DNA of 36,826 nucleotides from Anaerolineae bacterium (GCA_015486845.1 WFQU01000162.1:1-36826), one strand, 5' to 3'; shown: positions 3,662 to 16,053, numbered from the stretch's first letter. Numbers and translations are program-made. The notes: generated by a model from the letters alone, not told the origin.

Positions 3662-5053
3662 TCACTGAGAAGTATGCGTTCCGCCATGGGAAACTTCTTG
3701 GATCCCTTTGAGGTAAATACCCTGAAGCTCAATGCCGGAGAATTCCGGATAGGATTCGATGCCGTGATAGAAAAGATCAAGCCCCTCGTCTTCGACTTCA
3801 GGTGTCACGCGTAGTCTGAACAAATGTTTGATACCTACGAACAGTAATAGCGAGACTGGGAATACAAACGCAGTGACAGCTAACACGCCCAGAGTCTGCA
3901 CGCCGAGCAAGTGGAAGCCTCCACCGTAAAAGAGCCCGGCATCAGTAGCCCACAGGCCAACGGCAAGGGTACCGAAAGCGCCATTAAGCCCGTGCACGGC
4001 GAAAGCACCCACCGGATCATCGATACGGAGTTGTTCCAGCAGTTCGACGCCATAATAAGCAATCAGGCCGGCGATAACACCGATCAGCAAAGCCATGGTC
4101 GGTGTGACAAAAGCACAAGGCGCTGTGATGGCAACTAAACCGCCCAGCGCGCCATTGAAAGCCATGCTGACATCCCATTTGCGGGTATGTAGATAAGCAA
4201 GGAAAATTGCCATAATGGCGCCGGTCGTGGCGGCGAAGTCTGTGTTAACTACGATCAGAGCAATGGCGTTAGCATTAGTGGCGCTTAATGTGCTGCCGGG
4301 ATTGAAACCGAACCAACTTAACCAGAGAATAAAGGTGCCGAGTGCAGCAAGGGGAATGTTATGGCCGCGGATTTGCTTGACGTCCGTCCCAAACTCTTTG
4401 TCCCGGCGTTTGCCGAGGACCAATGTGCCAGCTAAGCCTACTAACGCTCCCACCAGGTGCACCACGGTAGAGCCGGCAAAGTCACGCATGCCCAATACAG
4501 CCAACCAACCATCACTACTCCAAATCCAGTGTCCGACTAAAGGATAGATGAGCAGACCTACAACGAAACTGTATACGAGATCCGCTCTGAAGTCCGTGCG
4601 CTCGGCCATCAACCCTGAAGCGATGGTGGAAGCTGTAGCGGAGAAGGCAAATTCAAAGAAGAAAAATGCCAGTGGCGGTAAGCCATTCAACTCGGGCGGC
4701 ATGTTGCGCAAGAAAAACCATTCTTTACCGAATAGTGCCGTGCCGCTGCCGAACATGATACCAAACCCAAAAGCCCAGAAGCCAACGGTCGTCATGGTCG
4801 TATCTAGAAAGTTTTCTGCCATGATATTGACCACATTCTTGGCTCGTACGAATCCTGCCTCCAGGAAACCGAAGCCGGCTTGCATGAAGAACACTAAGAA
4901 CGCGGCAATTAACACCCACATCGTATTAATTGATTTGGCAAGATCGTTATTGGATAAAGTGCTTGAGCCATCAGCGAGGGCAGTGCTGGCGAATAGCGAT
5001 ATTAATACCAGCGCTAAGAACATTATTGGAAGTCGGCGAACTATTTTACGCAT
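3662..5053 (-). CDS. amt: Ammonium transporter
   Basis: This 463-aa Amt/Mep/Rh channel takes up ammonium across the cytoplasmic membrane. Residues 1-27 look like a cleavable signal peptide (ending ALA-DG), as in several bacterial Amt proteins, and about eleven membrane segments follow. The family signature DFAGSTVVHLVGA holds D191 and the pore His H199; the second pore His is H354 in VHGLNGAFG. WFGFNPGS carries the gate Phe. The cytoplasmic tail has the conserved EDEGLDLFYHG, the part that contacts PII proteins in studied homologues. GGGAG precedes the ATG. No glnK is adjacent; a 168-aa unknown follows instead. The pair is divergent from gltB, fitting nitrogen assimilation, and is enclosed by inverted repeats. 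Confidence 0.96.
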   Translation of the reverse strand: MRKIVRRLPIMFLALVLISLFASTALADGSSTLSNNDLAKSINTMWVLIAAFLVFFMQAGFGFLEAGFVRAKNVVNIMAENFLDTTMTTVGFWAFGFGIMFGSGTALFGKEWFFLRNMPPELNGLPPLAFFFFEFAFSATASTIASGLMAERTDFRADLVYSFVVGLLIYPLVGHWIWSSDGWLAVLGMRDFAGSTVVHLVGALVGLAGTLVLGKRRDKEFGTDVKQIRGHNIPLAALGTFILWLSWFGFNPGSTLSATNANAIALIVVNTDFAATTGAIMAIFLAYLHTRKWDVSMAFNGALGGLVAITAPCAFVTPTMALLIGVIAGLIAYYGVELLEQLRIDDPVGAFAVHGLNGAFGTLAVGLWATDAGLFYGGGFHLLGVQTLGVLAVTAFVFPVSLLLFVGIKHLFRLRVTPEVEDEGLDLFYHGIESYPEFSGIELQGIYLKGIQEVSHGGTHTSQ

Positions 5054-5583
5054 AGCTTTGAGTCTCCCGTTAGGTTATGCATAGAAATGAACGTGTAAAC
5101 ACACTGAATGTGACACGGTTCTTTTCTACAGGTTGCTGTGGAATGACGTGTGTCTTGCATGCAACCCATCTCTTCGTCTTGCGTCTTTGCGCTCCAATTT
5201 TGCGTCGCCTGTGACTTTCTATACCCTCACGCCCGGAATTCGACCATACCCTATTGGAAGCATTAATTTCCTGTACACTTGTACTTCTCCGTTGAGCATT
5301 GTCTGATTCCAGCAGGGAATCGGTACAAACTCCCAAACAAGCTTGTCGTACATAGATTCTCGAGCGCATATCCAGGGTTATGTTGCCCATTTTACGACAA
5401 AGATAGGGGAATTCCATTGCCCGAATGGGTGATTTCCCGGGTGAATAGGGTAGTTTGTAACATTGATGCAGCATTTTTGTGCGTTTCCTGAAAAGAATAT
5501 GATTTTATTTCCGTTTTATCTGTATTGCATTTGACCTGGGCCGAGCCGTTACGCTTGTAAAAGTAAGATCCTATTGCAACGCT

Positions 5584-5729
5584 ATGTAATCGTCCCAGAA
5601 TAAGTTCCCCCAACTGCCATTGCGAGCGGGCGCAGCCCTGAAGCAATCTCTGACTTACAAACTTGGGGATTGCTTCGGCCTATCGGCCTCGCAATGACAC
5701 AAATGGGAAGTTGTCGTTAGACAGCCACT
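5584..5729 (-). repeat. Inverted repeat flanking amt, right copy (family P, copy 2)
   Basis: This is the reverse complement of 2876-3023, with matching ends (GTAATCGTCC on the left, AGACAGCCACTA on the right) and the same internal nested palindrome. With its partner it encloses the amt cassette of about 2.56 kb (3024-5583). Confidence 0.85.
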
Positions 5730-5786
5730 ATGATTCCCCGCTCTGCACACGTTGCTTCCCGCTCTGTCGAATTTCAGGCTGCACAA

Positions 5787-5815
5787 TTGGCCTGACTTGG
5801 CAAAAAGCGTATAAT
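5787..5815 (+). promoter_or_regulatory. Candidate promoter for gltB
   Basis: TTGGCC (5787-5792) is followed 17 bases later by a perfect TATAAT (5810-5815). It faces gltB and lies about 280 bp before its ATG. It is the best sigma-70-like site in the interval. Confidence 0.5.
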
Positions 5816-6096
5816 GTGTTTGTTCGTATCTCTCCCTTCACGGTGTCGTGAAGAACCCTCATGAAGAGTTTGTTTCTCTCGCTGACGAGTTGACACTGGG
5901 CAGGTTATCCCTGCCATATCAAGACAAGACCCCGCTTACGTTGACAACAGGTATGCTAACAATATCGGCATTACGCTCCCGTTGTCAGATAACTTGGGAA
6001 TGTAGAAGGGTTGCGGGGCAGGGCAGGGCATTCCTGCTGTTGCCTTTACGCTTCCTTGTCGCTTCGTGCCACGAATGACTGAGGGAGACCGTTGAA

Positions 6097-9000
6097 ATGA
6101 AGTTAACTATGCCAGATTCTCGTTCTATCACCAACAAAGAGATGCTCCAGATCGCGAGCGAAGTGAGTCCTGGAATGACAAATGTTGCCAAGGACTCGGT
6201 TCGCGCGGCCATACGTGATGCTGCGTCTGAACAAAACAGATATTCTCAAGAGCACGACAGTTGTGCTATTGTTTGTAATATTCACAAAGCAGTTAGAGGT
6301 AGTCATGGCAACGTTAAAAGGACGCTGGAAGCTTTACACAAAATGGGGCATCGCGCCGGTGATGTAGATGGTGAAGGGGATGGCTGTGGCCTCCTCACCG
6401 ACATCCCCAGAATCTTATGGGCTAATTACCTGGCGGAAGCAGGTCGCCCTCGCTGGTTGGCGGAAGATAGCCGTTTTTTTGTTGGGCATCTGCTGATCCC
6501 CATGGCGCATAAACAAGAGGAACAGGCTGTAAAGCGACGCGTTTCGCGCATGGTACAGGAGGAAGGGTTTGACCTCCTGTTGGCACGGGATGCTCTAACA
6601 AGAAAGGTCGCACTGGGTGCCTCGGGCCGGATGCAGGAACCGCTGTTTTGGCAGATAGCAGGCTTGGTGAGCCATAGTCCTTTGGATCGCATCGATGCTA
6701 AGCTTTTCCAGTTGCATTTGCGCATCGAGCGGGAGACTCCCATTCATGTGGCATCGTTTAGCACGCATACTGTAGTTTACAAAGTGCGCGGGGATAGCCG
6801 TACTTTGCGCAATTACTATCCAGAGCTGCTCATGCCGGATTACACCAGCAAAGTTACCATCGGGCATACCCGCTATAGCACCAACACCTGGTCTGTTTTC
6901 GAGCGCGTGCAACCATTCACCATATTGGGACATAACGGCGAGATCAATACCATTCAGCGGCTAAACGAAGAAGCCCGCATGGTTGGGGCAGAGCTGGTCC
7001 CCGGCGCTTCGGATAGCCAGGATGTCAACAGAATGCTGGAGACACTGATTCATGTCTATGGCTTTACCCTGATGGAAGCGATGGAAATACTCTTCCCGCC
7101 CATCTTGAGCAATGTGGCGTCTCTATCTCCTGATTTGCAGGCGCTGCACCGTTACTATCGCTATGCTTTTGGCCCTTTTGCCCAAGGCCCGGCAGCCATC
7201 GTAGCCCATTTTGCCAATGAGGCTCTTTTCAGTGTGGATGCCCTTGGTTTGCGCCCGCTCTGGTTCGGGGAAACGGACAAGGAATACTTCTTCTCCAGTG
7301 AGCGCGGGGTAGTGCCCACGGAGAATGTGGTTAGAGACCCCAAACCATTGGCTCCAGGAGAAAAGATGGCCGTTAGAATGTCTCGCGATGGTGAGATAGA
7401 AATATTGGATTATGTTACTATCCAGCAAAGGTTGCTGCGCCTTGCCTACCGCCGGTTCGGTTCTCTATCCCCCGTGAAGCGCGTTCTGGAAACTATGACG
7501 TACCAAGAAAGTGCTGAAAGACCGGCTGATAGTGTTGCTATCACGATTCCAAAGGCGCCGAACGGGGCAGAGAAGGTAGAAAACTACTTGGCGGCCTTTG
7601 GTTGGCGACGAGAGCATCGAGATTGGGTTAAGCAGCTTAGTGAGCATAAAAAGGAACCCATTAGTTCACTGGGGGCGGACGAACCACTGGCGCCTCTGGA
7701 TGCCGACCCCGTGAATCTGGCCGACTACATCAAAGAATCTGTGGCTGTGGTGACAAACCCAGCTATCGACCGAGAAAGAGAAGCAGAGCACTTCAGCACG
7801 CAAGTCGTGGTGGGCGCTCGCCCTTCCCTGGCTTACGGAACAGTTGACTTGTCTGGGTGCTCGGTCGTCTTGCCTATGCCTATCCTGATTGGTGGATATC
7901 CATTCCCCCCGCTGCTAGACGCCGACTCTTGTCAACAGGTTGCCGGTGCTCTTGGCACCATGACCGTGGATCGGCTTTTGGATTTCTGCGGCGCATCCAA
8001 AGTGCATCGCCTGGATTGTACTTTCCTGGCTGAAGAATCCTTGCCCGACGCCATCGAGAGGTTGAAAAAAGAAGCTGTGGCCGCGGTGCAAAGCGGCGCT
8101 AATTTGCTATTGCTGGACGATGCATCTGTTTGGTCTGGGCAGCGGCACTGGATTGATCCGCACCTGGCCATAGCCGCGGTGGACAGCGTGCTTCGGGAAG
8201 AAGGCCAAGGCGATGACAACTTGCGTCGCCGATGTGGTTTGGTGCTTCGCTCCGGCGCGATCCGTAATTTGCATGATATCGTCGTGGCGCTCGGCCTCGG
8301 TGCTAATGCCATCAATCCATACTTGCTGCTGAAAACGGGTGTAGATTCCGCACAGGACCTTTCCGCTGCTGAAAAGCGCATCCGACTGACCAACTTAATC
8401 ATCGCCTTGAACAGAGGAATCGAAAAAGTCACTTCTACCATGGGCGTCCATGCCCTGCGAGGCTATGGCCGGGTGTTTGGTTCCATTGGCTTGAGCGACG
8501 ACCTGGCCAATTTATTGGGCCTCCACAATTACTGTGGCTCCAAAGGACACGGTCTCACTTGGGAGCGTTTAGAGGCCGCGAGTAGACGCCGGGCCGAGAT
8601 CGCGGGGATGGCCCGGCCTCGTTTAGGCCATACCCATCGCCTGCTCTCTCGAATGTGGAAACCAGCCGGCCGCATTGCTCGCGGCGAGCCCGATAGCTCC
8701 GCGCTTTTTCGCCAAATGGAGGACTTGGAAGAAACCGAACCGGCGGCATTGCGGCATTTAGTATCTTTCGCTACGCCGGCCAATGTACCCGAAATTAGTG
8801 CCGGGGAAGTGGACGCTGGTTTGACAGGGCACGACTTGCCTTTCGTTATATCCTCGATGTCTTTCGGTTCCCAGGGGGAAACAGCGTTTTTAGCCTATGC
8901 TGAGGCGGCTTACCGTCTAAATATGATATCTTTGAACGGTGAAGGCGGCGAGCCTGAGGACGTGCTGGGCGTGTACCCGCATAATCGGGGCATCCAGATA

Positions 9001-10974
9001 GCCAGCGCCCGCTTCGGGATTACGGTAGACGTTCTCAATTCTACGGATCTCATCGAGATAAAAATTGGACAAGGAGCAAAACCAGGCGAAGGTGGCTTGC
9101 TCCCCAGCCGAAAGGTTACCGCAAAGATAGCGAAAACGCGCCGTGCCACCCAAGGAATCGATCTCATAAGTCCCTCCAATAACCACGATATTTACTCCAT
9201 CGAGGATTTGGCGCAGTTCATCGAGGAGCTCAAGACGGTCAATCCTAAGGCGCGGATAGCCGTGAAGCTACCTGTGGTACCCGGCGTCGGTATCATTGCC
9301 ACCGGCGTAGCCAAAGCAAAGGCGGATGTGATCAGCTTGAGCGGCTTCGAGGGCGGGACAGGCGCAGCGCGCCGGCATGCAATTCATTACGTCGGGATGC
9401 CCATCGAGATAGGGGTCATGGAAGCCCATCATGCTTTGGTGGCAGCCGGCCTCAGGGATCGTGTCGAGATCTGGGCGGATGGAGGCGTGCGTACGCCTGC
9501 CGATGTAGTGAAGTTGATCTGCCTCGGTGCTAACAGAGTCGGCTTTGGTACCATGTCAATGATAGCCATCGGTTGCACGGCCTGTCGCCAGTGCCAGTTT
9601 GGCACTTGTTACAAAGGCATCACGACGCATATTGAGAGTGTAGAAGAGGCCAAAGAAAAAGGAGTAAAGCATTTCGAACCCCTCGATCTCGATCTAGCCG
9701 TGGAAAGACTCGTGAACTTCTTCGGTGCGATGGGGACTGAGGTGAAACGCATAACAGCCGGCTTAGGCTTCCGCAGCGTGCAGGATCTGGTTGGCAGGAC
9801 AGACCTGCTGAAGCAAACCCGCGCTTTACAAGAAGTGGATTTGAGCCGGATGCTGACGCCAGCTACAGCACCGGAATTATCAGCGGTCGATGATTGGCGG
9901 ATTGGACGCCAGGTGCGCCGGCCCAGGAACCATCTTACGAATCTTGTCTCCGAAGTGATAGAAGAGGCAGTGCAAGCCGGGGATACCTCTGTGGTATTCG
10001 AAGATGAACTGGTCGGCCCGTCGGATAGGGCGCTGGGAACACATTTGGCCGGCCTGTTAACGCGTTGGCAGCATGGTTGGGATGGACGTCCAGCTAACCA
10101 CGCCGGGGAAGGCAAGTCTTATGGGCCTAAGCGCAAAGAAGACGTGCTCATGGGTACTGCCGGCCAGGCGCATTATGCGCAATCGCTGCGGGCTCTTCTG
10201 TATTTTCACGCTAGCTCAATTCCCGGCAATGGCCTGGGCGCTTTCAATACCGACGGCATAGAGATCATGGTAGAAGGTGGGGCACAGGATGGCGTCGCCA
10301 AGTGCGCTTGTGGTGGTAGCGTGGTGGTTATGAAAGGCTTGAACTACGACGGGAAGCGGCTGGACGGATCGGTGGGCAAATACTTCGCCTATGGTGCTAC
10401 TCGTGGTCTATTCATCGTGCAGGGAAATGCGGACAGCCGTGCTTGCATACGTCTAAGCGGCGCGGATGTGGTCCTTGGCGGACGGATAGAAGAACCAATC
10501 AATGACACATTGGGTTTTATCGGAACCAGAGCCAACGTCAAAGGTTTCCTCTGTGAGTACATGACGGCCGGCAGGGTGGTGGTGCTGGGAGACCCGGGGC
10601 CGTGGATTTGTGCTGGCATGACTGGAGGCGTTCTGTATCTCCGTCTGGACGAGAAGATGGGATTAGATATGGAGGCCATTCATAGGCGTTTAGCCACAGG
10701 GGCCCATGTAGAACTGCAAATGGTGCAAGATGAAGATGCAGCGAACTTGCGTTATTTGCTAGGAGAATACGTAGAGCAGCTAAACCGCACGATGCAGTAT
10801 CAGGAAGCGGAAGCGGTTCAAGAATACCTGGAAAACTGGCGCAGTGTCTTCGTGAAAATCGTTCCATCGCCCCGAAGGCACGCTGCCCAGGCACCGGCAA
10901 AGCGGGGAACGCTGCTAGCAGCGAGTACCCTCGTAGGAACGAAGGGCGTTCAGACCGGTGTGGTGTCAGTATAA
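6097..10974 (+). CDS. gltB: Glutamate synthase large subunit (probably ferredoxin-type)
   Basis: This 1,625-aa enzyme makes glutamate from glutamine and 2-oxoglutarate. Its N-terminal class-II amidotransferase domain carries C56 in HDSCAIV as the likely mature N-terminal nucleophile, after a longer than usual ~55-residue propeptide; GHNGEINTI and GHTRYSTNTW are conserved. The FMN/synthase domain follows, with SFGSQ, GEGGEPED, NNHDIYSIEDLAQ and ADGGVRTPADVV. The Cys set C1160-x5-C1166-x4-C1171 fits the family's 3Fe-4S cluster, with an extra Cys at 1163. The C-terminal GXGXG beta-helix domain is present. GGGAG precedes the ATG. No NADPH-binding small chain (gltD) is adjacent, so a ferredoxin donor is likely but not proven. 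It is divergent from amt. Confidence 0.95.
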   Translation: MKLTMPDSRSITNKEMLQIASEVSPGMTNVAKDSVRAAIRDAASEQNRYSQEHDSCAIVCNIHKAVRGSHGNVKRTLEALHKMGHRAGDVDGEGDGCGLLTDIPRILWANYLAEAGRPRWLAEDSRFFVGHLLIPMAHKQEEQAVKRRVSRMVQEEGFDLLLARDALTRKVALGASGRMQEPLFWQIAGLVSHSPLDRIDAKLFQLHLRIERETPIHVASFSTHTVVYKVRGDSRTLRNYYPELLMPDYTSKVTIGHTRYSTNTWSVFERVQPFTILGHNGEINTIQRLNEEARMVGAELVPGASDSQDVNRMLETLIHVYGFTLMEAMEILFPPILSNVASLSPDLQALHRYYRYAFGPFAQGPAAIVAHFANEALFSVDALGLRPLWFGETDKEYFFSSERGVVPTENVVRDPKPLAPGEKMAVRMSRDGEIEILDYVTIQQRLLRLAYRRFGSLSPVKRVLETMTYQESAERPADSVAITIPKAPNGAEKVENYLAAFGWRREHRDWVKQLSEHKKEPISSLGADEPLAPLDADPVNLADYIKESVAVVTNPAIDREREAEHFSTQVVVGARPSLAYGTVDLSGCSVVLPMPILIGGYPFPPLLDADSCQQVAGALGTMTVDRLLDFCGASKVHRLDCTFLAEESLPDAIERLKKEAVAAVQSGANLLLLDDASVWSGQRHWIDPHLAIAAVDSVLREEGQGDDNLRRRCGLVLRSGAIRNLHDIVVALGLGANAINPYLLLKTGVDSAQDLSAAEKRIRLTNLIIALNRGIEKVTSTMGVHALRGYGRVFGSIGLSDDLANLLGLHNYCGSKGHGLTWERLEAASRRRAEIAGMARPRLGHTHRLLSRMWKPAGRIARGEPDSSALFRQMEDLEETEPAALRHLVSFATPANVPEISAGEVDAGLTGHDLPFVISSMSFGSQGETAFLAYAEAAYRLNMISLNGEGGEPEDVLGVYPHNRGIQIASARFGITVDVLNSTDLIEIKIGQGAKPGEGGLLPSRKVTAKIAKTRRATQGIDLISPSNNHDIYSIEDLAQFIEELKTVNPKARIAVKLPVVPGVGIIATGVAKAKADVISLSGFEGGTGAARRHAIHYVGMPIEIGVMEAHHALVAAGLRDRVEIWADGGVRTPADVVKLICLGANRVGFGTMSMIAIGCTACRQCQFGTCYKGITTHIESVEEAKEKGVKHFEPLDLDLAVERLVNFFGAMGTEVKRITAGLGFRSVQDLVGRTDLLKQTRALQEVDLSRMLTPATAPELSAVDDWRIGRQVRRPRNHLTNLVSEVIEEAVQAGDTSVVFEDELVGPSDRALGTHLAGLLTRWQHGWDGRPANHAGEGKSYGPKRKEDVLMGTAGQAHYAQSLRALLYFHASSIPGNGLGAFNTDGIEIMVEGGAQDGVAKCACGGSVVVMKGLNYDGKRLDGSVGKYFAYGATRGLFIVQGNADSRACIRLSGADVVLGGRIEEPINDTLGFIGTRANVKGFLCEYMTAGRVVVLGDPGPWICAGMTGGVLYLRLDEKMGLDMEAIHRRLATGAHVELQMVQDEDAANLRYLLGEYVEQLNRTMQYQEAEAVQEYLENWRSVFVKIVPSPRRHAAQAPAKRGTLLAASTLVGTKGVQTGVVSV

Positions 10975-11285
10975 TGATGGAAAAAGCAACGCAAAGTGCG
11001 CAGAGAGAAAGATAATGCGTTTGCGATGAGTTCTTGCCTGTAGAATTCTTGCTTTTTCTCAGTGTTCTCGGCGATCCCCGCGGCTAAGTACCTTTTTCAG
11101 GGGACGCAACCAACAATAGATGAAAAGGCTTGCTGATTTGAACTGAGGGTGGCACAGTTGTATACTTTGTTATGCTGAAGGATGATGAGGGTGTCATTTC
11201 TTGCGGCGATTGCTGTCCGGGCTGGGTACCGTGAAATATCCACTATAGTTTCTTGATCTGCTTGACCAGATGTAGGAATAATGCC
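10975..11285. other. Leader and promoter interval before the sucCD-like operon
   Basis: The 311 bp between gltB and the next operon contain the promoter at 11138-11166. No terminator with a T-run was found after gltB, and no small gene. Confidence 0.5.
11138..11166 (+). promoter_or_regulatory. Candidate promoter of the sucCD-like/FeS/flavoprotein operon
   Basis: TTGAAC (11138-11143) and TATACT (11161-11166) are separated by exactly 17 bases. The site lies 120 bp before the first gene of the operon, giving a short leader. This is a good sigma-70-like match. Confidence 0.6.
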
Positions 11286-12470
11286 ATGAGACTGTACGAA
11301 TTTGAGACGAAATCTATGCTCCGTAGGGATGGCCTGCCCGTTCCATGGGGGATTTTTACCACCAGTCCTCGCGTTGCCGCCGGTTTTGTGGAACAAAATG
11401 GTGATTCCGTTGTTAAAGCACAAACCATTGCCGGCAAACGGGCCCGCGCCGGGGGAATTCTGTTCGTCAACATGGCGATCAAAGGGGAACTCGCCACAGA
11501 AATGCTCCTGGATTCCACCCTCTACGGCGAAGAGGTCATCGGGGTATTAGTGGAGAAGAAAGCACGGGTCAAGCGGGAGTATTATGTCTCGTTTTATTAC
11601 GATCCCAAGTTGCGTTCTTTGATGTTGGCTTTCAGCCCCGCCGGGGGAACGGATGTCGAAGAGAAGATAAAAACGGGGCCGCAGAATCTTTTTAAACTGC
11701 CATTGCCCCTTTGCCAGGACGTGCGTTGGCGTATCAGGGAATTTTTGATGGACATTGTGCCGACAGATCCGGCGCCGTTGGTGGATTTATTGTACCATAT
11801 CTACGAGTTTTTCCTCCTGTACGAATTTAGCTATTTGGAAATTAACCCGTTGGCAGAAACAGACCACCAGGATTATGTCATCTTAGATGTGGTCTCTTCC
11901 ATCGATGTGGCGGCGCTGGGCCGGCACCCGGAGATTGCCATCGCTCCGCGGGCTTCCCACAACGCTGACTTGCCAACAGGGGAATTCAGATCAGCCATGA
12001 TCAATATCGAGGATGCCCGCGGCACCCGCCGTGATTTCGTTCATTTGGGGGGCGACATCGGCGTGCTGGCCATCGGCGGATCAATCAGCTTGATCGTGGT
12101 GGATTACTTGTACCAGTTAGGTGGCCGGCCGTTCAACTATGCCGAACTGCGGGGAACTGTCACAGCTACACGCATTTCGCACCTGCTGAAAGAGATTCTG
12201 CGCAATCCACAGATTAAGGGGCTGCTTATCGTCGGCGCTTCCACGGATTATTTGCGCATAGACGCTGTGGCTAACGGTATTCACGACGCGCTCAAAGAAA
12301 TCCGGCCAACTTACCCGGTGGTGCTGAGGGTGCCCGGCTTGGGCAAAGATGTGGCTAAAGAGATTTTAAGTGGTCTCAGGCGCGCCAACATGCAAGTCTT
12401 GTGGAACCATGCCACCATCAAAGATAGTGTCACAGCGATTATGGAGAAGGTCTATGGGCATCCTGCTTGA
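11286..12470 (+). CDS. Divergent succinyl-CoA-synthetase beta-chain-like ATP-grasp protein
   Basis: This 394-aa protein is close to the length of SucC (~388). The start is the ATG with AGGA 8 bases upstream; an earlier frame extension lacks such a site. The N-terminus MRLYEFETKSML matches the SucC opening, VVKAQTIAGKRARAGG is the ATP-grasp lysine and loop region, and LEINPL (residues 184-189) keeps the Glu that contacts the phosphohistidine helix. The C-terminal ligase domain has the right order but altered loops: SucC's Gly-rich NGAG becomes AIGGSIS, LDVGGGA becomes AELRGTV, and FGGIVRCD becomes GASTDYLRID. It overlaps the alpha-like gene by 17 bp. It is an acyl-CoA ligase (ADP-forming type) subunit; the substrate may be succinate or a related acid. 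Confidence 0.8.
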   Translation: MRLYEFETKSMLRRDGLPVPWGIFTTSPRVAAGFVEQNGDSVVKAQTIAGKRARAGGILFVNMAIKGELATEMLLDSTLYGEEVIGVLVEKKARVKREYYVSFYYDPKLRSLMLAFSPAGGTDVEEKIKTGPQNLFKLPLPLCQDVRWRIREFLMDIVPTDPAPLVDLLYHIYEFFLLYEFSYLEINPLAETDHQDYVILDVVSSIDVAALGRHPEIAIAPRASHNADLPTGEFRSAMINIEDARGTRRDFVHLGGDIGVLAIGGSISLIVVDYLYQLGGRPFNYAELRGTVTATRISHLLKEILRNPQIKGLLIVGASTDYLRIDAVANGIHDALKEIRPTYPVVLRVPGLGKDVAKEILSGLRRANMQVLWNHATIKDSVTAIMEKVYGHPA

Positions 12471-13359
12471 TAGCGAAACGAATATCGTTCTCCAGGGGGC
12501 TTGCACCCGCCGGGGCTGGCAATTATTGGAGGATATGCTGAATTACAGCGCCACTGTGGCCGCCGGCGTCTGCTATGGCGGTCTGAAAACAAAGGTTTAC
12601 CGGGGTGTGCCGTTTTTTAAGAGTCTGAAACAGGCTGTAGAAACAGCCCCCGAGATCAACGTTTCGGTCATTGCCGTGCCGCCGTATGAAGTGCTCGGCG
12701 CGGCGCAAGAAGCGATGGAAGCTGGCGTGCGCCTTATCATCGTGCACACTGCCGATGTGCCCATCAAGGATGTTATCCTCATCCGGCGGGAAGCGGAACG
12801 GCTGAATTCGCTGCTATTGGGGCCCAACGCTGATGGCGTGATCACCCCGGATGTCTGCATGGCCGGCAGTTTAGGGGGTGTTTTAGCACTTTCCATCCAT
12901 CGCCGGGGGCCTATCGGCGTCATTAGCCGCAGCAATGGCATCGTGAACGAGCTTAGCGGTTTGCTTGCCGCCGGCGGGTTGGGGGTTTCCACCATCGTCA
13001 CTTTGGGGACGGAACGGATCCTTTTCTCCTCGTTTGTGGATATTTTGCGGCTTTTTGCGGATGACGAAGAGACGAAAGGCGTGCTGTTGTTCGGCGAACC
13101 GGGCGGGGCGTACGAAGCGGAAGCCGCGGACTGGATTGCGGCACACGGTTATGCCAAGCCTATTGTGGCTTACATTGCCGGGAAATTCATCGACAATCTG
13201 GCCGAGGGCACCATTTTAGGACATCGGGGCGTGGTCATCGAACGGGGATTGGGCAGCCCGACGGACAAAATCCGGCGTTTGCAAAGCGCCGGCGTGCGGG
13301 TGGTAGCGTTCAATGAGGATATTCCCGCTGTTTTTCAGGAGGTATTGAAAGATGGTTAG
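12454..13359 (+). CDS. Divergent succinyl-CoA-synthetase alpha-chain-like protein
   Basis: This 301-aa protein has SucD-like length (~289) and order. The N-terminal CoA-binding Rossmann domain starts MGILLDSETNIVLQG. The ligase domain has PNADGVITPD in place of PNCPGVITP, SRSNGIVNE in place of SRSGTLTYE, GTERI in place of GGDPI, and GEPGGAYEAEA, which keeps the Glu (E215) next to the active site. H257 in TILGHRG is the His expected to be phosphorylated, so catalysis should be intact. The start overlaps the beta-like gene by 17 bp; the stop overlaps the Fe-S gene by 8 bp, indicating translational coupling. The repeated changes in loops around the active site suggest a substrate or partner other than the standard enzyme. 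Confidence 0.8.
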   Translation: MGILLDSETNIVLQGACTRRGWQLLEDMLNYSATVAAGVCYGGLKTKVYRGVPFFKSLKQAVETAPEINVSVIAVPPYEVLGAAQEAMEAGVRLIIVHTADVPIKDVILIRREAERLNSLLLGPNADGVITPDVCMAGSLGGVLALSIHRRGPIGVISRSNGIVNELSGLLAAGGLGVSTIVTLGTERILFSSFVDILRLFADDEETKGVLLFGEPGGAYEAEAADWIAAHGYAKPIVAYIAGKFIDNLAEGTILGHRGVVIERGLGSPTDKIRRLQSAGVRVVAFNEDIPAVFQEVLKDG

Positions 13360-13978
13360 TATCGACATCATGGGCAAAACCTACGAAGTGCCGGACGATC
13401 TGACAATTCTACAAGCGCTTTGGTATGTCGGCCACAAAACGATCCGTGGGGTCGGTTGCTTGGGCGGGTTCTGCGGTGCTTGTTCCACCGTCTATCGCCT
13501 TCCCGACGAAGGATATAAACTGCACGTGGGCTTAGCTTGCCAGACCAATGTCATCGACGGTATGAGCTTAGCACAGATTCCTTTCTTTCCGTCGAAGGAT
13601 ACGACGATCTATGCCGAGACGGTAAAAAATGAGGAAGAATTATTGCTGGAGGTTTATCCGGACACCCAAAAATGTATCAGTTGCGGCGTCTGTAATCGGG
13701 TCTGTCCACAGAATTTAAACGTGATGGGTTACGTGCTCAAGGCGAATAACGGGGAGTTCCAGACGACCGTCAATTGGTCATTCGACTGTATCAATTGCGG
13801 CCTCTGCGCGATGAAATGTCCGGCGGATATTTCTCCCAACTTGATTGCCCGCTACGTGCGCCGGCAATATGCGCTGCTATCATTGCAGCCCTCTCGCCTC
13901 CTGGCAACGCGGATCGAAGAGATCAGAAAGGGAAAATACGATGACGCGTGGAGAGAACTCTTCGCCGATCTGGGATAG
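13352..13978 (+). CDS. Fumarate-reductase-type iron-sulfur protein (2Fe-2S plus two 4Fe-4S)
   Basis: This 208-aa electron-transfer subunit is slightly shorter than SdhB/FrdB (~240). The N-terminal 2Fe-2S domain has C36-x4-C41-x2-C44 and C63. The C-terminal domain has two full CxxCxxCxxxCP sets: C108, C111, C114, C118 and C146, C149, C152, C156. In SdhB/FrdB the second set normally lacks one Cys and holds a 3Fe-4S cluster, so two 4Fe-4S clusters are expected here. No quinone-pocket partner or membrane anchor is encoded nearby. AGGAGG lies 9 bases before the ATG, inside the upstream gene, and the flavoprotein gene starts 38 bp before this one ends. It probably passes electrons between a soluble donor or acceptor and the flavoprotein. 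Confidence 0.85.
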   Translation: MVSIDIMGKTYEVPDDLTILQALWYVGHKTIRGVGCLGGFCGACSTVYRLPDEGYKLHVGLACQTNVIDGMSLAQIPFFPSKDTTIYAETVKNEEELLLEVYPDTQKCISCGVCNRVCPQNLNVMGYVLKANNGEFQTTVNWSFDCINCGLCAMKCPADISPNLIARYVRRQYALLSLQPSRLLATRIEEIRKGKYDDAWRELFADLG

Positions 13979-15539
13979 CATCCGGCGCATTGCCGAGACT
14001 CGCGAACAGCGACTGCAAAGGCAGGATGTTCCGCTGCCGGCCGTCGATAAAGAAACGATGCTCCATCGCTACCACCCGGACTACGTGGAAGACTATTTCG
14101 CTGTTCTCCAGGTTGGCCCCAACAAAGGGGCGCGGGTGGCGAAAGAGATTGCTGCCGTTCTGGAATCTCCCACCATTTTGCCCTCTGAACTGCAGCCGTT
14201 TACGCCACAGCACAAAGCCGATGTCTTGGTGATTGGTGGGGGCGGTGCGGGTATTACTGCGGCTATTTTTGCCCACGATGCCGGCGCCAATGTGCTCCTC
14301 GTGACTAAACTGCGCTTGGGCGATTCCAACACGATCATGGCGCAAGGCGGAGTGCAAGTGGCTATCGGGGCGGACGATTCTCCCATTGACCATTTCCAAG
14401 ATGCTTTTGCCGGCGGCGGCAAGACCAGCGATCCGCATTTGCTCCGCTTTTTGGTAGAAAAGGGGCCGGAAGCTATTGTCTGGTTAGAGAAGATCGGCGT
14501 GATATTCTCTAAAGACGAAAATGGTGAATTCCTGCTGCGCAAAGCGGGGGGAACTACCCACCCCCGGGTGATCTTCGCTAAGGACTATACCGGCTTGGAG
14601 ATTACCCGCAATCTCATTGACGAATTGCGCAAGAGAGATGTGCGGGTTGTGGAAATGATGCCGACGGTGGAGCTTCTGACGGACGAGGCAGGGCGTTGCA
14701 CCGGCGCGGTGTTGATGGATTACGACAATGGTCGCTATACTGCTGTCCAGGCGAAAACCACAATACTTGCCACCGGCGGCAGCGGCCGGCTGCACATGGC
14801 CGGTTTCCCCACCAGCAATCATTATGGCGCCACCGGGGATGGGTTGGTCATGGCTTACCGGGCCGGCGCCGAGGTTCGGGATATGGATTCCTTCCAATAC
14901 CACCCGACGGGCGTGATCTATCCGCCTCAAATGTACGGGTTGCTGGTTACGGAGGCTATTCGCTCGGAGGGCGGCCAACTGGTTAACGACCGGGGGAAAC
15001 GATTCGTCAACGAGACGGAAACCCGCGATTTCGTGGCAGCGTCCATCATCCGGGAATGTCGGGAGGGGCGTGGCGTCACGGTGGAAAGCGGCGACTGTGG
15101 GGTGTGGCTGGATATTCCGGTCATCGAGAAAGTCAAAGGAAGTAATTACCTCAAGAAACGTTTCCCGGCCATGTTCCGCCAGTTTCAGCGCTTCGGCTGG
15201 GATATTCGCAAACATCCCGTGCTGGTCTATCCCACGCTGCATTACCAGAACGGAGGCTTAGTCATCGATGGAAGCGGCGAGACTGCGGTGCGCAATCTAT
15301 TTGCCGTGGGCGAGGTGGCCGGCGGCATTCACGGACACAACCGGTTGATGGGGAACTCGTTGCTGGAGATTTTCACTTTTGGCCGGCATGTGGGCGTGGT
15401 AGCAGCCCGGCGGGCACAAGAAACTCCATTTGGCGCCTTGACACTGCAGCATTTGGAGGCATTCACGGCAGCGCCGCGATGGGCCGGCGTGCGGAGCCCT
15501 ATCCTGCTGCCAAACTACGTGCGCAAAGAGTCTGCGTGA
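13941..15539 (+). CDS. Fumarate reductase / succinate dehydrogenase flavoprotein-like subunit
   Basis: This 532-aa FAD enzyme starts at the ATG inside the end of the Fe-S gene, preceded by AAAGGGA. Residues 1-93 are a family-atypical extension; the FAD dinucleotide fold begins at DVLVIGGGGAG (94-104). Catalytic residues of the fumarate/succinate family are all present: H321 in YHPTG, R341 in TEAIRSEGG, H434 in LHYQNGG and R468 in GHNRLMGNS. At the site where SdhA/FrdA bind FAD covalently through His (SHT), this protein has N130 (SNT), so FAD should be non-covalent. It ends ~50 residues after the NSLLE segment, so most of the C-terminal helical domain is missing. GGTTHPRV resembles L-aspartate oxidase, but the Fe-S partner favours a fumarate reductase-like role. 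Confidence 0.82.
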   Translation: MTRGENSSPIWDSIRRIAETREQRLQRQDVPLPAVDKETMLHRYHPDYVEDYFAVLQVGPNKGARVAKEIAAVLESPTILPSELQPFTPQHKADVLVIGGGGAGITAAIFAHDAGANVLLVTKLRLGDSNTIMAQGGVQVAIGADDSPIDHFQDAFAGGGKTSDPHLLRFLVEKGPEAIVWLEKIGVIFSKDENGEFLLRKAGGTTHPRVIFAKDYTGLEITRNLIDELRKRDVRVVEMMPTVELLTDEAGRCTGAVLMDYDNGRYTAVQAKTTILATGGSGRLHMAGFPTSNHYGATGDGLVMAYRAGAEVRDMDSFQYHPTGVIYPPQMYGLLVTEAIRSEGGQLVNDRGKRFVNETETRDFVAASIIRECREGRGVTVESGDCGVWLDIPVIEKVKGSNYLKKRFPAMFRQFQRFGWDIRKHPVLVYPTLHYQNGGLVIDGSGETAVRNLFAVGEVAGGIHGHNRLMGNSLLEIFTFGRHVGVVAARRAQETPFGALTLQHLEAFTAAPRWAGVRSPILLPNYVRKESA

Positions 15540-16053
15540 GCCTTCGGCGTACCACGACGGCTGGAAATAAGCCGGTAACCGACAGCCAGTAGCCGTCAGC
15601 AAGTACGCCGCCCCAGAGGAGCTTGCGGCCAAGCGACCACCTACGCGGTCGCAACTACGCCGACGTAGGTCGGCGTTCTATGGAACTGTTTTCCGGGGGG
15701 CGCACGGAGCTCAAAGCTCCGTGCTACAGGGTGAGAAAGCCCCCTGAAAGGGGGCTATAGCGAGGCAGCCCGCTTTAGCGGGCTTGAACTTAACGTAGCC
15801 CGGGTCTTTAGGCCCAGGCATGGGGGCGGCTGAGGAGTTATTGGCGCGTAGGCGCGGATCATGATCCGCCGGTTTGCTGCGCTTTTAGGCCCGGCGACTG
15901 GAAGTCGCGGGCAACATTTGCGAAATCGCCCTGCGGCGATTAGCATGCAACCTGCGCAGGCAGGTTTCGCAATCGTAGCAGCGATTTTAATCGCCGGGCG
16001 TGCTGCTGCGTTTATCTGCATCCTATTTTATTTTCGAGGGGGGTCTTTTTCTT
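15540..16053. other. Gene-free interval of hairpins and repeats
   Basis: The 514 bp after the operon hold several palindromes: CGCCGACGTAGGTCGGCG near 15658, CACGGAGCTCAAAGCTCCGTG near 15703, AGCCCCCTGAAAGGGGGCT near 15738 and AGCCCGCTTTAGCGGGCT near 15766. A partial family Q copy follows. None has a clean T-run, but together they could stop transcription of the operon. No small gene is supported. Confidence 0.6.
15887..16030 (+). repeat. Repeat family Q, partial copy 2
   Basis: From GGCCCGGCGACTGGAAGTCG through CGCCCTGCGGCG, CCTGCGCAGG and TAATCGCCGGGCG, this follows the same order as 33063-33200 and the reverse of 203-409. The final GTAGCCGAGGGC palindrome is missing. It runs to within about 25 bp of the YwiC-like start. 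Confidence 0.7.

Follow-up and report, generated by a model that had tools for sequence, protein, structure and literature searches.

A soluble-type fumarate-reductase-like pair encoded together with an altered CoA-ligase pair in an Anaerolineae bacterium

The window analysed here is a single contig of 36,826 nt from an Anaerolineae bacterium (GCA_015486845.1, WFQU01000162.1:1-36826), part of a 3.28-Mb, 98%-complete assembly whose gene content suggests Chloroflexota. At 11286-15539 it carries an operon of four genes (Table 1), encoding a SucC-like and a SucD-like subunit of a coenzyme A (CoA) ligase, an iron-sulfur (Fe-S) protein, and a flavoprotein. As judged from families and motifs, the Fe-S protein and flavoprotein belong to a recurrent family of soluble fumarate-reductase/succinate-dehydrogenase-like (FRD/SDH-like) pairs, while the ligase, with its CoA site altered, is a clear candidate for an enzyme whose reaction has changed. 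We favor, with moderate confidence, a reading in which a soluble SDH/FRD pair and an altered ligase pair serve one dicarboxylate pathway. The families, motifs, and residue losses described below, and the neighborhoods in relatives, are read from sequence.

The flavoprotein has the fold of the membrane-bound SdhCDAB and FrdABCD enzymes and keeps their dicarboxylate-site motifs: HPTG at residue 321, TEAIR (TE-x2-R) at 337, LHYQNGG at 433, and HNRL at 466. It lacks their C-terminal Succ_DH_flav_C domain (Pfam) and the histidine that binds flavin adenine dinucleotide (FAD) covalently, having SNTIMAQGG at that position, and it has an N-terminal extension of about 90 residues. The roles of HPTG, TE-x2-R, HYQNGG, NRL, and the covalent-FAD histidine are established for the SDH/FRD family. 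The Fe-S protein has an N-terminal 2Fe-2S domain followed by two CxxCxxCxxxCP motifs, and these two 4Fe-4S-type motifs are a further difference from the membrane enzymes; Pfam finds Fer2 and a Fer4 dicluster only. All 12 cysteines are present (36, 41, 44, 63; 108, 111, 114, 118; 146, 149, 152, 156), spaced as for one 2Fe-2S and two 4Fe-4S clusters. The open frames of the window include no SdhC/FrdC-like anchor near the four genes. A sequence-only reading of this DNA had proposed an anchor-less pair of the soluble type, and family, motifs, and the missing anchor gene support it; a soluble location is what we infer from these.

Among the closest named systems is the methanogen thiol:fumarate reductase TfrAB, likewise soluble and anchor-less. 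TfrA is the best NCBIfam match of the flavoprotein, but at 371 bits against a cut-off of 718; the Fe-S protein resembles TfrB in its 2Fe-2S and 4Fe-4S motifs and has a weak match to it (33 bits), but lacks its C-terminal cysteine-rich CCG domain (Pfam). HdrB/CCG proteins occur as separate genes in some relatives of the window pair.

The flavoprotein family is sharply bounded. Relatives at E < 1e-85 are found in 52 of 396 genomes of the same class, all with identities of 47-53% and almost always over the full length, N-terminal extension included, and at E 1e-110 in 20 of 400 genomes of the phylum; none was found at E < 1e-70 in five genomes of the same family. The Fe-S protein is about 45% identical to the partner proteins of these relatives, although in a few class loci no Fe-S gene was detected beside the flavoprotein.

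The genes around the pair in relatives were named by tblastn to representatives, with Pfam for ten of these; the mutase B12 domain, epimerase, fumarase beta, and malate dehydrogenase were named by reading of the sequences. By manual count, HdrA, MvhD, and/or an FrhB-like Fe-S protein adjoin the pair in 46 of 53 class loci, and three of the other seven are contig-end fragments. In three phylum loci (L187, L188, L192) the neighbors are HdrB/HdrC and fumarase alpha and beta, with malate dehydrogenase also in L192. Three loci have Fe-S, flavoprotein, and NuoF-like genes in a row (L123, 268-3798; L190, 3001-6541; L191, 3079-6619), and these sets are likely NADH-linked soluble fumarate reductases. 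Finally, an operon intact in three genera (L179, 3813-13590; L205, 1530-11321; L208, 4587-14286) and truncated in L204 and L206 encodes a mutase B12 domain, epimerase, SucC, SucD, CCG, LUD, Fe-S protein, flavoprotein, ferredoxin, an acyl-CoA-dehydrogenase-like protein, and fumarase beta, which suggests a methylmalonyl-CoA pathway where the CCG/LUD module feeds a soluble succinate dehydrogenase. The electron modules beside the pair (HdrA/MvhD/FrhB-like, HdrBC, NuoF, CCG/LUD) are interchangeable. Because fumarase and methylmalonyl-CoA genes adjoin the relatives, an FRD/SDH role is the best reading of the pair.

A SucCD beside the pair is rare but recurrent; most relatives have Hdr, NuoF, or CCG/LUD modules and no ligase. 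The methylmalonyl-CoA operons share with the window the order SucC-SucD ... Fe-S-flavoprotein, but also contain the CCG, LUD, mutase, epimerase, and fumarase genes, and in the SucCD of L179 neither the CoA loops nor the phosphate loops depart from the usual form, and the ligase tree puts it on the canonical side. One class locus (L066) has SucC-SucD-CitE-HD-flavoprotein, without an Fe-S gene. The SucD-CitE-HD order is seen in two genomes, there (3983-9383) and at L148 (9549-12004), accompanied by SucC and a nearby flavoprotein; this hints at a pathway that combines a dicarboxyl-CoA ligase with a lyase. At another locus (L143 in G270, 4954-16001) a divergent SucCD adjoins a CaiB-type CoA transferase, a CitE lyase, a two-subunit fumarase-like pair, and a further Fe-S/flavoprotein pair.

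The window ligase shares with SucCD its fold family, gene order, phosphohistidine loop, and ATP-grasp core, but both subunits fall far below the curated NCBIfam cut-offs (SucC 181 vs. 370 bits, SucD 216 vs. 336 bits). The best solved-structure match of the SucC is citryl-CoA synthetase (6hxq_B, 135 bits), followed by SucC 3ufx_B (129 bits), and it is 35-36% identical to citryl-CoA-synthetase-like SucC. No orthologue of either subunit was found: identity to the best other sequence is 41% for SucD and 36% for SucC, a scan of genome contigs with the window SucD gave six loci only (Marinimicrobia SucD in five cases, 34-39% identical), and a plasmid search gave only SucD-like matches, all below 39%. 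In a tree of concatenated SucC and SucD, the window pair groups with citryl-CoA-synthetase-like pairs, including one from its own genome (local support 0.92), but on the longest branch. It differs from citryl-CoA synthetase (CcsAB) in several respects: identity is 36% at best, the CoA site is altered, and the operon has no citryl-CoA lyase gene. The genome's own pair is a second divergent SucCD that precedes a citrate-synthase-domain lyase (L003; G000:C175, 4409-7327); its large subunit has citryl-CoA synthetase as best match (285 bits). This arrangement of a citryl-CoA-synthetase-like pair and then a citryl-CoA-lyase-like gene, seen also at L140 and L141 and common to two genomes of another family, is possibly an ATP-dependent citrate-cleavage route.

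The losses are concentrated in one subunit. Of 53 SucD residues classed as near-invariant (conservation of 93% or more across all the other sequences compared), 15 are gone from the window SucD, as against at most five in other true SucDs and 33 in a distant non-SucD (L039); the SucC has lost 3 of 41, so that equal degeneracy of the two subunits was rejected. By alignment, the SucD losses are found mostly in the CoA and phosphate loops and at the residue after the phosphohistidine. In the CoA loops TGxxG has become ACTRRG (TG to CT) and TPGKGG has become VCYGGLK; in the phosphate loops SRSG has become SRSNGIVNE (SRSN) and GGDP has become LGTERI (GTER). The phosphohistidine itself, H257, is retained in a loop changed from GHAG to GHRG, as are Glu215 in the GE(I/P)GG loop (here GEPGG) and, in SucC, the EINPL motif of the ATP-grasp domain. 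In ligases of this family the phosphohistidine swings back and forth: one of its stations is the ATP-grasp site, the other a CoA site with two “power helices” as its cap (PMC11494057). The window SucD changes are located at the CoA site, the second of these two stations. Since SucD has lost most of its CoA and acyl-phosphate loop residues, succinyl-CoA formation by the window pair is doubtful, and the ligase probably no longer catalyzes the textbook reaction.

In the reading we favor, the Fe-S protein and flavoprotein would form a soluble SDH/FRD-type catalytic pair with non-covalently bound FAD, in which one [2Fe-2S] and two [4Fe-4S] clusters would exchange electrons, in one direction or the other, with a soluble partner and not with quinone; the redox direction, like the partner, is our inference. 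The ligase pair, of citryl-/succinyl-CoA-synthetase descent, would act in the same dicarboxylate branch, and the two enzyme pairs would be co-translated because they serve one pathway rather than because they form a fixed four-subunit channeling machine. As the CoA/acyl-phosphate site has been rebuilt while the ATP-grasp core and phosphohistidine are kept, the ligase most likely acts on an acid or acceptor other than succinate or CoA, or by a changed mechanism. Several points weigh against this reading. The operon lacks an electron-input module (Hdr, NuoF, or CCG/LUD), and nothing ties to it the Hdr-like cluster found on another contig of the same genome. As a SucCD partner is rare and no other searched genome showed the exact order, the pathway role of this combination rests on one assembly. 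The window SucCD is the longest branch of the tree (1.44, vs. 0.86 for the next), and long-branch attraction may account for its place beside the citryl-CoA synthetases. The AlphaFold model of the window SucD is too poor to use (predicted local distance difference test, 53).

As a second possibility, the SucCD-like pair might form no CoA thioesters at all, being either a pseudoenzyme or a repurposed fumarate-reductase partner, regulatory or in the slot of the Hdr, NuoF, or CCG/LUD modules. It does stand where relatives have an electron module, and the CoA-loop, SRSG, and GGD phosphate-loop residues are gone from frames that are nonetheless open, overlapped, and coding-like, with GC content at third codon positions (GC3) of 0.62-0.65; with open, overlapping frames of normal composition, the ligase genes seem to be expressed and not decaying. 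One argument against such a role is that the ligase pair has no redox centre of its own; another is that the catalytic histidine, the GEPGG glutamate, and EINPL are all kept, although nothing would prevent their loss from an inactive remnant. We consider this distinctly less likely than a pathway with an altered but working ligase. Less likely still is the idea that a citryl-/succinyl-CoA-synthetase pair has turned into a new type of partner for a soluble fumarate reductase, replacing Hdr, NuoF, or CCG/LUD and carrying out ATP and phosphohistidine chemistry on a non-CoA acceptor or a non-canonical acid.

As a third possibility, the four products might form a dedicated soluble complex of SucCD and fumarate reductase, interconverting fumarate and succinyl-CoA with direct transfer of succinate, much as the sequence-only reading had suggested in proposing a stoichiometric assembly. 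The tight gene overlaps (17, 8, and 38 bp, borne out by the open frames), the consecutive reactions, and the recurrence of SucC-SucD ... Fe-S-flavoprotein order in the conserved methylmalonyl-CoA operon would all suit such a complex. Conservation of the four-gene order in relatives was, however, not found: there is no second copy in 6 same-order genomes (its own included, which alone among them has the flavoprotein), in the 396 class genomes, or in the 400 phylum genomes. As no other searched genome has the exact order, a dedicated channeling complex is unsupported; in addition, SucCD is not near the pair in most relatives, the CoA-loop and phosphate-helix residues that every true relative retains are missing from the window SucD, and the same genome has a normal SucCD (L004) and a complete SdhCDAB (an SdhA/SdhB pair, L001, preceded by two short SdhC/SdhD-type membrane-protein genes), as well as a class-I fumarase. 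We therefore give this possibility little credence. Other parts of the proposal fare unevenly. Standard SdhCDAB and SucCD are encoded apart from the operon in this genome; in E. coli the order is sdhCDAB-sucABCD, with Sdh and SucCD adjoining. The exact gene set was found in no other searched genome, and no description of it was found in the open-licence literature, but the claim of novelty is weakened by the E. coli arrangement. A link between redox chemistry and a CoA ligase does exist at the pathway level in relatives, in the methylmalonyl-CoA operon with fumarase, and such coupling between SucCD and a soluble fumarate reductase belongs to a known kind; for the window it is qualified by the doubt about succinyl-CoA.

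That the flavoprotein is instead L-aspartate oxidase, or a reductase of some other enoate, seems improbable: its NadB score of 305 bits is close to that for Sdh (307 bits) and the covalent-FAD histidine is absent, but it falls below every NadB cut-off (453 bits for the 305-bit match, others likewise), retains the fumarate-site motifs, and is paired with a three-cluster Fe-S protein, in relatives adjoining fumarase, malate dehydrogenase, SucCD, and methylmalonyl-CoA genes.

The four genes had been placed behind one promoter. A candidate site does precede them (Table 1), as a weak consensus match; the consensus scan found 6 promoter-like sites, against a shuffle mean of 2.3. The genes flanking the operon lie outside the pathway: glutamate synthase upstream, and YwiC-like, aminotransferase, and glycosyltransferase-like genes downstream. 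The first of these, directly 5′ of the operon at 6097-10974, encodes a large-subunit-like protein of 1625 aa; no small-subunit gene was noticed beside it. GC3 of the four operon genes is 0.62-0.67, slightly above that of the neighbors (0.56-0.64), and horizontal acquisition, judged by this composition, is unsupported.

Table 1. Features of the four-gene operon and its upstream region (window coordinates)
Feature	Product	Position	Strand	Basis
Candidate sigma-70-like promoter, weak, 5′ of operon		11138-11166	+	TTGAAC-17-TATACT, consensus scan 9/12
sucC-like gene	394 aa, SucC-like / citryl-CoA-synthetase-large-subunit-like ATP-grasp protein	11286-12470	+	Open frame; Pfam ATP-grasp_2
sucD-like gene	301 aa, CoA-ligase alpha subunit	12454-13359	+	Open frame; Pfam CoA_binding + Ligase_CoA + Succ_CoA_lig
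Fe-S protein gene	208 aa	13352-13978	+	Open frame; Pfam Fer2 + 4Fe-4S dicluster
Fumarate-reductase-like flavoprotein gene	532 aa	13941-15539	+	Open frame; Pfam FAD_binding_2

One soluble FRD/SDH pair is used repeatedly in a bacterial phylum, next to no fewer than five different modules, so that for anchor-less fumarate reductases the electron donor can be tested one locus at a time. Two features of the window are unusual and open to test: the electron partner that the redox pair uses, and the altered ligase, a pair from a very well-studied enzyme family that has retained its ATP and phosphohistidine parts but has a rewritten CoA site.

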